A program made the position numbers and the translations under genes. Under the pieces are notes generated by a model, which saw only the letters and a list, made by a program, of their open reading frames with translations, did no database searches and was not told where the DNA came from. From the NCBI RefSeq assembly GCF_029433105.1, contig NZ_JARNTW010000008.1, positions 124,001 through 188,000 of the forward strand: 64,000 bases of DNA, in the 5' to 3' direction. Origin of the DNA: Runella sp. MFBS21. GTDB lineage: Bacteria > Bacteroidota > Bacteroidia > Cytophagales > Spirosomataceae. Positions 37,932 through 41,589 of this stretch are shown piece by piece. Position 1 is the stretch's first letter, and each line of letters opens with the position of its first letter.

Positions 37932-38360
37932 ACTTTATAGAAATTTACAGCTGACTGCATAAGCGTATGACAAATAGCATATCGGTACAAGACTGACTCT
38001 TTCAGAGCCACGAAAAAGCTACCGCCAGTTAAGGTGGCAGGGCTCATAGGGCGTCAATTTCTATTCTGCTGCCCGAGATCAGATACAATATAATCTTATT
38101 GGCGCTGCAAACAGCGTTTCCATCACGATTGCTTTTAATACAGTCTGTTGTTGAGGTTTTATCCGCTATCACCAGGCCACGGGGCACCCCACTTGGCTAA
38201 TAAAATTTCTATCGCTGCCCCCCGTTGAGGTTTGGATAAAGACAGGATATAGGTCGGAGTGCCGATGCACTTCAATCCCATGGTGAGTTTGCGGCCCCCT
38301 TAAAATACCTATATCCTGCTCAACAACTGAAAAGTAAACTTACCAGTTTCTTGATTTTGT
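37932..38360. other. Decayed insertion-sequence debris
   Basis: No intact gene. Contains a small hairpin (CTACCGCC ... GGTGGCAG) and several isolated GC-rich blocks in AT-rich DNA. One of these, CCACGGGGCACCCCAC (38177-38192), matches the 16-mer at 40466-40481 at 14 of 16 positions. Confidence 0.4.
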
Positions 38361-38690: not shown

Positions 38691-38861
38691 ACTTTACTTT
38701 CAGTTTCCTCGTGCATAGCTTTACATTTTGTGCATCGCTATTTCAGGACGTGACATTTGTACAAAAAAACATGAGTCATCCCTAATTTTTCGGATTTGAT
38801 TAAAAAATCAAAAACCTCCTGAACTTTGTGGTCGCTAAACTACAAGACAGGAGGTTTTCTT

Positions 38862-40020
38862 ATGAATACTACTACAAAACAAACAAATTCTGAGCAAGAA
38901 TGGCCTCATTCTGTGGGTCTTTTTTATCAACAACGCCTAACCGAATTTACCCTCGAGATTCTCCAAGAATTAACAGCCTTGATCGATGTTCGCCTGGTGC
39001 GCACCTTTAGCCAGTTGCTGATCACCTTGTTACGCTTCCGGCATCGAAATAACGGGCTGCTTTTAAGTGAATTAGGGGAACATCTGCTTTCAGCCCGTCA
39101 AGCTCCTGCGGACACTAAACGAATCTCTAACCTACTTCGATGCCCCCATTGGAACCATACCCTAATTCAGAAAGGTATTCAGGCCAAAGCCCGTACGTTT
39201 TATGAGCAGCTCCATCAACAAGGGCAACCCGTGTTGGTTCTCTGGCCGGGCGGCCGGTGCCGATGAGAGTGTGATGGAAAAACCCGAAACCTTAGCTAAT
39301 AATGACTTGGGAGCCGTTCGCAGTAGTAAAGCCCGCCGACTCAAGCGTATTCGACCGGGCTATTTCAATCCCCCCGGTGGCAAACCGGTCTGCGTGCCCG
39401 GATTGGAATGGCTGGCTCTGTTACTAGCAGGACCAAGTGGAGCTCCTTGTCTGTATCAGTTTGAGTGGTGGACTCGCCGCGGTGAACACGCTCGTCGGCG
39501 CGCAGACGTAGTCAATGATGCCTTAGTTGAGCTTAGCCATCGTTTTGGTTCAACGGTTTTACATGTCTTTGATCGGGGCTATGCCTCCCAGGCTTGGTTA
39601 GGGAAGTTAGTGAACGCTAACTTGAAAGGCCTGATTCGGTGGCAAACCCACTATCAACTTCTCAATCAGGCCAGTCAAGCGGTAAAGACTTGGGAACTAA
39701 CACGTGGTAAACGCTCAATTGATTATCGACTCGTGTATGATACCGTCCACAAGTGTAATCGAAAAACAGGGCTTATCTACCAACCGGTATGGCATCCGGC
39801 TTACCCTGATGTACCCCTGTATCTGATTGTATCACGGCCCGGTCAAGGGCGAACACCTTGGTATCTGCTTACTAATGAAGCTATTGGTTCGGCGGAGGAC
39901 GCCTGGAGAATGGTGTTTGCTTATGCCCGTCGTTGGCAGATTGAGATGGCCTTCCGTTATACTAAATCGGAATTGGCTTTGGAATCACCTCGCTTATGGT
40001 TTTGCGGGGTGGCCCTTTAG
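38862..40020 (+). pseudogene. IS4-family transposase, N-terminal and central part (C-terminus at 41342-41557)
   Basis: From ATG 38862 (MNTTTKQTNSEQEWPHSVGL) the frame runs to PVLVLW, then a 16-nt GC-rich block (39246-39261) shifts it. Dropping the block gives LW-DESVMEKPETLANNDLG, the conserved first catalytic Asp region. It continues VRSSKARRLKRIRPGYFNPP, STVLHVFDRGYASQAWLGKL (second Asp) and WYLLTNEAIGSAEDAWRMVF with RRWQIEMAFRYTKSELALES. The IS110 insertion follows PRLW. Across it the protein resumes as KSVRENRLKLMMIVALLYAF to a stop at 41557. Doubly inactivated, although otherwise well conserved. Confidence 0.88.
39246..39261. repeat. 16-nt GC-rich insertion 1 (IS4 transposase)
   Basis: CCGGGCGGCCGGTGCC sits between codon TGG (W) and GAT (D) of the conserved WDES motif. 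Excision restores the frame exactly. GC 15/16. Confidence 0.85.
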
Positions 40021-40257
40021 ATTTGAGACATGGTAGGATTCTAAGATTTAGTAGCTTGCCAACAAGTAAACAGGGTGGGTTTACCTATGGGGGTGGTGCG
40101 CCACTGCGACGCAGAGTGGTTGCTCTATGCACGGATTCAGGCCCCGCCCTGTCTTACTTGCTTTAGGCTCAAATGGAAATTCGGGTATGGTGGCCCATTA
40201 GTAAGGGTTTGAGCAGTGAAGCAAGCAACTTGTTGAACCCCTAAATTATTATTTCTT
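40021..40257 (+). ncRNA. Candidate bridge RNA region of the IS110 element
   Basis: IS110-group elements are known to encode a guide (bridge) RNA in the non-coding end upstream of the transposase. This 237-bp region has no frame and contains possible stems, for example AAGTAAACAGGG (40064-40075) with CCCTGTCTTACTT. Loop assignments could not be made by eye. The call rests on family knowledge and position. Confidence 0.45.
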
Positions 40258-40287
40258 ATGGACATTCGCTATTTTATCGGTGTTGAC

Positions 40288-40304
40288 CGGGGGTGCCCGT
40301 GCAC
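40288..40304. repeat. 16-nt GC-rich insertion 2 (IS110 transposase)
   Basis: Between GAC (D) and TCT AAA GCT (SKA) there are 19 nt, that is one codon plus 16. Removing CGGGGGTGCCCGTGCA leaves CTT and restores IGVDLSKATLD. The exact edge is ambiguous by one base. Confidence 0.8.
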
Positions 40305-40465
40305 TTTCTAAAGCTACGTTAGATTGGGCCGTTTTCGATGGCAAGCACATCGTCTTGCAAAGTCAGTCGGCTAACTCAGAGGCGGGTATTAAAACCACCC
40401 TCAAACTCATACAGGCCTTGCCTGACTTTAGGATAAACGAGTCGGTGTGTTGCATGGAACATACG

Positions 40466-40481
40466 CCACGGGGCGCCCCGC
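40466..40481. repeat. 16-nt GC-rich insertion 3 (IS110 transposase)
   Basis: CCACGGGGCGCCCCGC interrupts the conserved MEHTGIY motif; excision gives ACG-GGT-ATT-TAC in frame. It contains the 10-bp palindrome GGGGCGCCCC. A 14/16 match lies at 38177-38192. Confidence 0.85.
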
Positions 40482-40550
40482 GGTATTTACAACATACACC
40501 TGTTAAGCTATTTACGCAAATTCTCTCTTCCCATTTGGTTAGAAAACAGC

Positions 40551-40566
40551 GGCGTCGGCCGTCCGA
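40551..40566. repeat. 16-nt GC-rich insertion 4 (IS110 transposase)
   Basis: GGCGTCGGCCGTCCGA interrupts WLENS-LQIKKSGGLQRGKND, one of the best conserved IS110 segments; excision restores it. Contains CGGCCG. Confidence 0.85.
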
Positions 40567-40752
40567 TTGCAGATTAAAAAATCGGGTGGTCTGCAACGCG
40601 GCAAAAACGATGCTATTGATGCCCAACGCATCGCTGAGTACGCCTTTCGCTTCCGTGACCGAATGCGGCTGTGGCAACCACCCCGCCCTGTTTTACAAAA
40701 GTTGGCGGCTCTCAGTGCGCTTCGTCAACGCCTTTTACGGGTTCGGCAGCAA

Positions 40753-40768
40753 TCGCACCGGCGACCCG
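40753..40768. repeat. 16-nt GC-rich insertion 5 (IS110 transposase)
   Basis: TCGCACCGGCGACCCG follows RLLRVRQQ; excision returns to the frame of PISEQQGFLDSTLQKQL. It matches the block at 41244 at 15 of 16 positions. A TAG at 40775 remains in the restored frame. Confidence 0.8.
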
Positions 40769-41243
40769 GTTCAATAGCCCATTAGCGAACAACAGGGATT
40801 CCTGGATTCAACCTTGCAAAAGCAACTTACTAAAAGTTGTCAGGCCTCCCTAAAAGCAATCAATGCGGATTTAGAAACGACTGACAAAAAAATTAATGAC
40901 CTCATTCAGCAGGATGCACGACTCAAAGAGCTCTTTGAGTGGATTACCTCTGTACCGGGCGTTGGTAGTGCCACCGCTACGGAACTCATCGTGGCTACCA
41001 ATGAGTTCAAGGACATTACTGATCCCAAAAAATTAGCGTGCCATGCGGGTGTTGCGCCCTTTGCTTATAGTTCGGGCAGTAGTGTCCGAGGCAAAACACG
41101 GGTTAATCAACATGCACGTTTACGCTTGAAATCTCTTTTCCACTTGGGAGCCATGTCGGCCAGGCGAACTACAAGACTATTATAAACGAAAAGTTGAGCA
41201 AGGTAAAAATAAGATGCTGGTGTTGAACGCGGTTCGTAACAAA

Positions 41244-41259
41244 TCGCACCGGCGACCCA
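41244..41259. repeat. 16-nt GC-rich insertion 6 (IS110 transposase)
   Basis: TCGCACCGGCGACCCA lies between NAVRNK and VIHRVCSVVHRQQKYDK; excision restores the conserved C-terminal IS110 segment. 15/16 identical to the block at 40753. Confidence 0.85.
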
Positions 41260-41589
41260 GTCATTCATCGAGTTTGCTCGGTTGTTCACCGCCAGCAGAA
41301 ATATGATAAAAATTATACGTCGATGCTTGTTTAAACCATGGAAATCCGTGCGGGAAAACCGACTTAAGTTGATGATGATTGTCGCTTTATTATACGCCTT
41401 TTTACTCTCCTTACTCCGTGCTGAGTTTAGTCATTGGCAGCAATTACTCTTGCGATTGGGCTGCCACCGAACGGGAAAGCGGTGCCGGGAAGCCTCAGCA
41501 CCGCTTTATCGTATCCGAATTGCTTTCACCCACTTATGGACTCAAAATTCGGGATGACTCATCTCTAATACTCTATCTCAAAATTTCAC

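Follow-up and report, generated by a model that had tools for sequence, protein, structure and literature searches.

What are the six short GC-rich blocks that interrupt two nested transposase genes of Runella sp. MFBS21? The DNA analysed, called the window throughout, is a stretch of 64,000 nt (contig NZ_JARNTW010000008.1, positions 124,001 to 188,000; G000:C71 in our numbering, where G stands for a genome, C for a contig and L for a fetched locus). Its own genome of 7.88 Mb was compared with 12 relatives of the same genus. The blocks lie in a nest of dead insertion sequences, in which an IS110-type element (PF02371) sits inside an IS4-type gene (PF01609). The original prediction had described them as 16-nt insertions of constant length and varied sequence, and had offered a micro mobile element, a programmed bypass or recoding signal, an unusual polymerase activity, or an assembly artefact as explanations.

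The six blocks are members of a family of approximately 17-nt double-hairpin sequences found at scattered sites in Runella, Spirosoma, and their relatives. They probably represent a dispersed family of ultra-short micro-mobile elements that is kept where insertion is tolerated, a reading to which we assign a probability of roughly 0.68. All six blocks were present at the positions first given, within one base. Two further copies, at 38254 and 40093, and a decayed copy at 38175 had been overlooked. The features of the window are as follows.

39246..39262, forward strand: 17-nt double-hairpin element CCGGGCGGCCGGTGCCG in the IS4 transposase; 8/8 pairs, net +16
40288..40304, forward strand: element CGGGGGTGCCCGTGCAC at the GVD/LSK junction of the IS110 transposase; 8/8 pairs, empty site with one base
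40464..40480, reverse strand: element, reverse complement CGGGGCGCCCCGTGGCG, at the MEHT/GIY junction of IS110; 8/8 pairs, empty site
40550..40566, reverse strand: element, reverse complement TCGGACGGCCGACGCCG, within WLENS..LQIKK of IS110; 8/8 pairs, empty site
40753..40769, reverse strand: element, reverse complement CCGGGTCGCCGGTGCGA, after LLRVRQQ of IS110; 8/8 pairs, empty site
41244..41260, reverse strand: element, reverse complement CTGGGTCGCCGGTGCGA, at the NK/VIH junction of IS110; 7/8 pairs, empty site
38254..38270, forward strand: further element TCGGAGTGCCGATGCAC upstream of IS4, amid other repeated debris; 8/8 pairs
40093..40109, forward strand: further element GTGGTGCGCCACTGCGA in a non-coding stretch upstream of the IS110 frame; 7/8 pairs
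38175..38191, reverse strand: decayed element GGCCACGGGGCACCCCA; 6/8 pairs
38919..40002, forward strand: IS4-family (DDE) transposase (PF01609), disrupted by the 39246 block and truncated by IS110
40258..41328, forward strand: IS110-family transposase (PF02371) with five blocks, one TAG stop, and one block-free frame change

An Rfam search gave three matches, all under gathering scores, and none of them falls on a block. When plasmids were checked for a relative of the IS4 element, there was one weak match only.

A double-hairpin family with an exact gain of 16 nt

The units share one plan. Nucleotides 1-4 pair with 9-12, and nucleotides 6-9 pair with 14-17, with 4-nt loops and nucleotide 9 common to both stems. 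Because nucleotide 9 is shared, the two overlapping 4-bp hairpins exclude each other's full formation. The plan is identical when read on either strand, and the family consensus is CCGGGCCGCCGGTGCGG. Pairing was complete (8/8) in five of the six reported blocks and reached 7/8 in the sixth. Folding prediction for single-stranded DNA gave the first hairpin in four blocks and the second in two. The varied sequence of the blocks is accounted for, since family members hold the pairing while the letters differ; the near-identity noticed between the last two blocks (40753 and 41244) was correct.

The abundance of the plan was compared to that of alternative geometries, which differ in loop and gap. 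At 10 or more G/C, 464 kb of the own genome, a sample chosen partly around hits, contained 14 copies of the plan, whereas 31 other geometries occurred 0-4 times. Contig 12 (400 kb, picked regardless of hits) contained zero perfect copies. In 313 kb of G070, which together with G040 represents another genus (g8), 7 perfect copies with at least 12 G/C were found, compared to 0-4 for 12 other geometries. The counts in contig 12 and G070 indicate that the units are rare in ordinary DNA. The balance of G-T and A-C mispairs as a sign of RNA, judged by eye among consensus-list members, gave a mixed picture.

The family was also recovered independently of its structure. For 216 short loci, we tabulated the non-tandem insertions that distinguish a locus from an empty homologue, with no structural rule applied. 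Among insertions of at least 75% G/C, 19 had a length of 16 and at most 3 had any other single length. No peak at 16 appeared among insertions of 60-75% G/C (n = 2 there) or below 60% G/C, where 27 had a length of 16, 20 of 15, 18 of 17, 26 of 18, and 31 of 21. The 19 GC-rich 16-nt insertions formed eight pairs in 14 cases, seven in 2, and six, five, and four in one case each, and same-letter shuffles predicted 0.014 insertions with eight pairs and 0.29 with seven. The block at 40464..40480 was among the 16-nt insertions of this survey. Furthermore, a DNA pattern with four free S positions produced 26 hits in G040 and G070 and none in the reversed control. Both variable pairs were kept in 24 of the 26 hits, and all four paired combinations occurred. 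L199, one of the two hits that break the pairing, looks like a chance coding sequence.

Alignment to uninterrupted relatives confirmed a gain of 16 nt at all six blocks. Eight IS4 homologous loci were tried. Adjacent residues of L276 and L278 aligned ending at 39245 and starting at 39262, which leaves exactly 16 nt between them. L279, L280, and L283 also resumed at 39262, with a first alignment that extends 4 residues into the block; of the remaining loci, one spans the later part only and two had no match. For the five IS110 blocks (40288, 40464, 40550, 40753, and 41244), the window carries 17 nt where uninterrupted relatives carry one base. G011 has the identical 17 nt at the IS110 site that matches 40550..40566.

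Two earlier claims were upheld in part. Clean restoration of the reading frames held for the net 16 nt per block, but removal of the blocks does not yield a whole IS110 gene. An in-frame TAG lies at 40775-40777, after the fourth block, and the frame shifts near 41163-41170 without any block there. Therefore, the blocks are not the sole lesions of the window IS110. The constant length held apart from a few exceptions, among them variants of 15 nt; two of these lie in frame within an open IS110 gene in a Spirosomataceae metagenome-assembled genome (MAG; L069). Another 15-nt variant, one base short of the plan, lies at L003:1449-1463, in a non-coding segment of an IS110 that is otherwise open.

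Empty sites were collected for 139 elements, with two in a toxin gene left out, and were called close at no more than 4 mismatches in 28. Close empty sites were found for 54 of the 139. Exactly one base lay between the flanks at 53 of these (net +16), and two bases at the remaining one. Random 17-nt windows of the same loci gave 3/139 close matches, all at other spacings. No target-site duplication was seen; one base was replaced at 53 of the 54 close empty sites. The 53 sites displayed a preference for A-R-[G]-Y, with A at -2 in 32, R at -1 in 44, G in the middle in 41, and Y at +1 in 44. Nucleotide 17 equalled the target base at 41 of the 53 sites (36 G and 5 A) and differed at 12. These match counts indicate either that a 17-nt unit replaces one base or that the insertion is 16 nt long and precedes a base that often matches nucleotide 17.

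The flanks did not behave as inverted repeats, as their mutual pairing showed no clear excess over shuffled partners. Positions 5 and 7 were 1.6 and 1.8 standard deviations above the shuffles, and the others were at or below them. A flank stem of at least six was present in 3 of 141 elements, two of which lie within a GTAGAGACGC palindrome. At two places in G070 (near 1501 of L131 and of L206), a unit lies in the loop of a palindrome of the GTAGAGACGC type.

Family-wide dispersal and avoidance of ordinary genes

Block A was matched, with at most one mismatch, in 13/13 genomes of the genus and in 0/6 others, and 6 of the 13 also gave one reversed-control match. A single conserved site, located upstream of a thioredoxin gene (PF00085), makes up part of this distribution. 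With up to two mismatches, the consensus was matched in 29 of 118 genomes of the order. In family f1, which we take to be Spirosomataceae, 8 of 9 genomes had matches, with match and reversed-control counts of 43/0, 42/3, 47/7, 26/8, 19/9, 8/0, 5/0, 3/1, and 0/0. Outside f1, the consensus was mostly absent or near the control, the exceptions being G028 (33/15), G107 (94/47), and a few smaller ones. GC content confounds these consensus counts, whereas the signal of the S-position pattern has zero control hits. Among the matches listed for G028, which belongs to family f17, there were seven copies of CCGGTCCGCCGGTGCGG.

Named loci with units came from Runella, Spirosoma, Larkinella, two MAGs (Cytophagales and Spirosomataceae), and one record labelled Flavobacterium. 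In that record (Flavobacterium sp. SUN052, L080), an IS110 with two units adjoins an open, unit-free IS110; it reflects either horizontal transfer or a misassigned record. No title among the open-literature matches listed describes such units in Runella or Spirosoma, with most subscription journals outside the search.

Identical units were found at separate sites within one genome. The CCGGGTCGCCGGTGCGA unit at 40753..40769 recurs without change at C16:72957, within an IS66 transposase gene (PF03050). The TCGGAGTGCCGATGCAC unit is present at C3:157977 and in G004 as well, and the GTGGTGCGCCACTGCGA unit is common to the window and a related copy on C3. A G004 locus (L061) contains CGCCACGGGGCGCCCCG in flanks like those of the decayed GGCCACGGGGCACCCCA.

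The gene context was assessed for 24 fully paired copies in G040 and G070, with frames counted from 100 aa upward. Twenty of the 24 lay outside such frames or, for a single copy, over the last codons of pdxJ (PF03740), and 14 of the 20 were within 60 nt of the start or end of a frame. One copy was in an IS1 transposase region (PF03400), and three were in a single gene wreck, L210. In this wreck, presumably an IS3-like element, nine units of 7 or 8 pairs are packed into approximately 0.9 kb (L210:1501-2418; G070:C19:57539 onward). Two Pfam scans of its pieces assigned no family.

A YoeB toxin gene, assigned by PF06769 in the intact G011 relative, contains a block at one and the same position in G000 and G006; G011, G001, and G004 have no block there.

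How the units may arise and spread

The presence of identical units at different sites, the exact empty sites, and the spread across the family are consistent with a mobile-like unit that disperses. The suggestion of a micro mobile element gained support, as one family occupies many unrelated sites in many genomes. In the model that we favour, a 17-nt unit with variable letters and conserved pairing would enter at A-R-[G]-Y without target duplication, for a net +16. It would either take the place of one target base or enter as 16 nt ahead of a base that often serves as nucleotide 17. Copies, presumably moved in trans by some activity, lie at unrelated sites and persist where they are tolerated, namely in IS elements, intergenic DNA, and the YoeB toxin gene. 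They would break genes and would not be removed from the message. The exact gain without duplication, together with hairpin conservation, suggests single-strand capture. A step of single-stranded hairpin capture, as in the IS200/IS605 or REP (repetitive extragenic palindrome) systems, is accordingly the most likely route we can name, if a tentative one. It is also possible, with reservations, that the 16-17 nt unit is the mobile element itself. A new enzyme of this bacterial family, dedicated to the unit, would then act on the two alternative hairpins and insert the unit exactly at A-R-G-Y, free of duplication and with a bias to other mobile elements. If true, the units would be among the smallest mobile DNA units known.

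Several observations weigh against the mobile-element reading. A mobilising enzyme did not turn up, nor did any pair of near-identical strains that differ by an insertion. The IS110 sites MEHT, KLA/CHAG, SAIRMK, and CTCRA are reused in different genera, which may reflect either hot spots or descent, the latter as shared ancestry with compensating changes. IS110 genes are, by a rough estimate, far more loaded than intergenic DNA, and neutral accumulation may be insufficient to explain this. A longer-flank listing without a GC filter showed no peak at 16 (14 of 196 insertions, compared to 19 at length 21). Folding energies of single blocks were barely better than shuffles (z -0.2 to -2.1). In contig 12, other geometries gave counts of 2-17 with one mispair and at least 12 G/C, a range that includes the 11 copies of the plan; two of these 11 carry a single T-G mispair each and resemble family members. 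Loosened searches of G070 also gave no excess, with 9 perfect copies at 9 or more G/C compared to 1-10, and 25 copies with one mispair compared to 13-57. Finally, 85 elements lacked a close empty site (73 had weak ones with scattered spacing and 12 had none), and 3 of the 53 empty sites lie in repeats, namely L207 in its own GC repeat and L217 and L218 in simple repeats.

Among the rivals, an unlikely one holds that the units are REP-like elements moved by a Y1 transposase of the RAYT (REP-associated tyrosine transposase)/TnpA-REP kind. REPs are likewise dispersed hairpins largely between genes, and single-strand processing would fit an exact insertion without target duplication. Y1_Tnp genes occurred in 8 of 8 genomes searched. 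A perfect unit lies approximately 210 nt before the matched domain in L259, and a 7-pair unit approximately 900 nt away in L262. However, 23 of 26 Y1_Tnp loci had no unit in the fetched flanks, L251 had a weak and distant match only, none of the 26 had a unit directly beside the gene, and G097 has Y1_Tnp yet no consensus match. No clear link to RAYT emerged across the 26 loci. According to passages of PMC6006769, REPs span 21-65 nt, have a canonical GT[AG]G foot, and often flank a transposase gene; the unit is shorter. This tetranucleotide is absent from the hairpin foot in the consensus CCGGGCCGCCGGTGCGG and from the A-R-[G]-Y flanks. The same passages describe classes 2.6 (mostly Bacteroidetes) and 3 as having atypical structures without GT[AG]G.

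Similarly improbable is that the units are old insertions with little present mobility, held in IS110 lineages by selection on RNA structure, perhaps within the guide RNA or to curb transposase expression. Diverged IS110 copies carry blocks at the same sites with compensating changes, in the non-coding stretch of IS110 as well, which is consistent with such selection. Against it, units also occur in IS1, IS4, and IS66 genes and between unrelated genes, and in the related C3 copy the counterpart of block 40288 lost pairs by two changes, as unselected decay would give.

We also doubt that the units are polymerase or repair products, which would be GC-rich filler made at breaks by copying units already present and would need no dedicated enzyme. 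The replaced or matched target base, as at a repaired nick, and the 15-nt variants would suit this origin, but the sharp length of 16 and the site preference suit a defined enzyme better.

Programmed bypass or splicing, by which the blocks would be skipped by the ribosome or cut from RNA and the transposases would remain functional, appears quite improbable. In its favour, all frame changes of the Spirosoma fluviale IS110 in L071 lie at its four blocks, and the five segments are stop-free. Within the aligned part, IS110 genes in L044 (three blocks, part of the gene), the forward L078 copy (two), and L064 (one) were likewise broken only at blocks. The same sites recur in diverged IS110 copies with the pairing kept. 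However, bypass is disfavoured because ordinary genes are avoided: none of the 24 fully paired copies lies inside one, save that over the last codons of pdxJ. Frames hold blocks in both orientations, although the anatomy is strand-symmetric. The four-block IS110 has no near-identical second copy in its own genome, and open block-free IS110 copies lie alongside in G131, G132, and G133. Ordinary lesions were present too in the window copy, L068, L079, L080, and L081, and a second S. fluviale copy has one frame change without a unit to explain it. Magnusiomyces mitochondrial bypass blocks are also short and found at many sites inside frames. Passages of PMC5009743 report inserts at 81 positions that disrupt 12 of 15 protein genes and are bypassed, whereas ordinary genes are avoided in the sample here.

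An assembly or sequencing artefact is very unlikely, to the point of being negligible, since many genomes, each assembled separately, contain the family at sites both shared and private, and some of these assemblies (G040, G010, G003, and G009) consist of one to seven contigs.

Among known systems, the mobile unit proposed here would work most like the mitochondrial GC clusters, and we do not file it as a member of any family. The double-hairpin elements of Allomyces mitochondria are reportedly also short, GC-rich, and dispersed. The traits of a short GC-rich unit, conserved hairpins, and patchy dispersal were all found here. In the yeast clusters (GC42 and kin), passages of PMC4478555 likewise describe short GC-rich hairpin units that are dispersed and patchy and change mostly in their loops, with a transposition mechanism that is unsettled. 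The same passages give GC42 a length of 42 bp and read flanking AG or ACT repeats as target duplications. No such AG or ACT repeats flank the units here. The units here differ in having 17 nt and two overlapping hairpins, in lying on bacterial chromosomes, and in replacing one target base without any duplication. If the unit moves, it would illustrate how few requirements a mobile DNA element has and offer a simple, sequenceable system for hairpin spread. The units explain a class of transposase pseudogenes in one bacterial family, serve as markers of insertion history, and provide a bacterial counterpart to the unexplained mitochondrial GC clusters.

RPE, NEMIS, and ERIC repeats have a length of about 100 nt or greater, and many carry terminal inverted repeats. 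These repeats, which resemble miniature inverted-repeat transposable elements, are like the units in being non-autonomous and dispersed between and within genes, according to passages of PMC2229807. The unit here differs in its 17 nt and its lack of target duplication.

Units close to gene starts

The thioredoxin start codon is preceded in five Runella genomes by a unit that carries one fixed mispair (CCGGGTCGCCGGTACGA) and whose end is exactly 14 nt away. These units lie near 1500 in L031 (G012), L032 (G001), L034 (G009), L036 (G010), and L038 (G007), with two kinds of flanks. The CCGGGTCGCCGGTACGA unit may have been adopted as a 5' leader element of this gene.

The unit at L007:1501-1517 (C17:49095), which only G008 shares, also ends exactly 14 nt before a gene start, and the spacing thus equals that of the thioredoxin units. 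We take the downstream gene to be SppA-like; its first 140 residues had no Pfam match. The upstream regions of this gene and of a second, presumably a kinase gene, were tried as empty sites and rejected, as the unit is common to G000 and G008 and the other Runella regions were not alignable there. Several reverse-strand loci entered the sppA alignment without reorientation.

In G040 and G070 (L195 and L204, at 1501), the same rhodanese-type gene, of 344 and 353 aa, starts 8-9 nt downstream of a unit. The flanks differ between the two genomes, and the units differ slightly.

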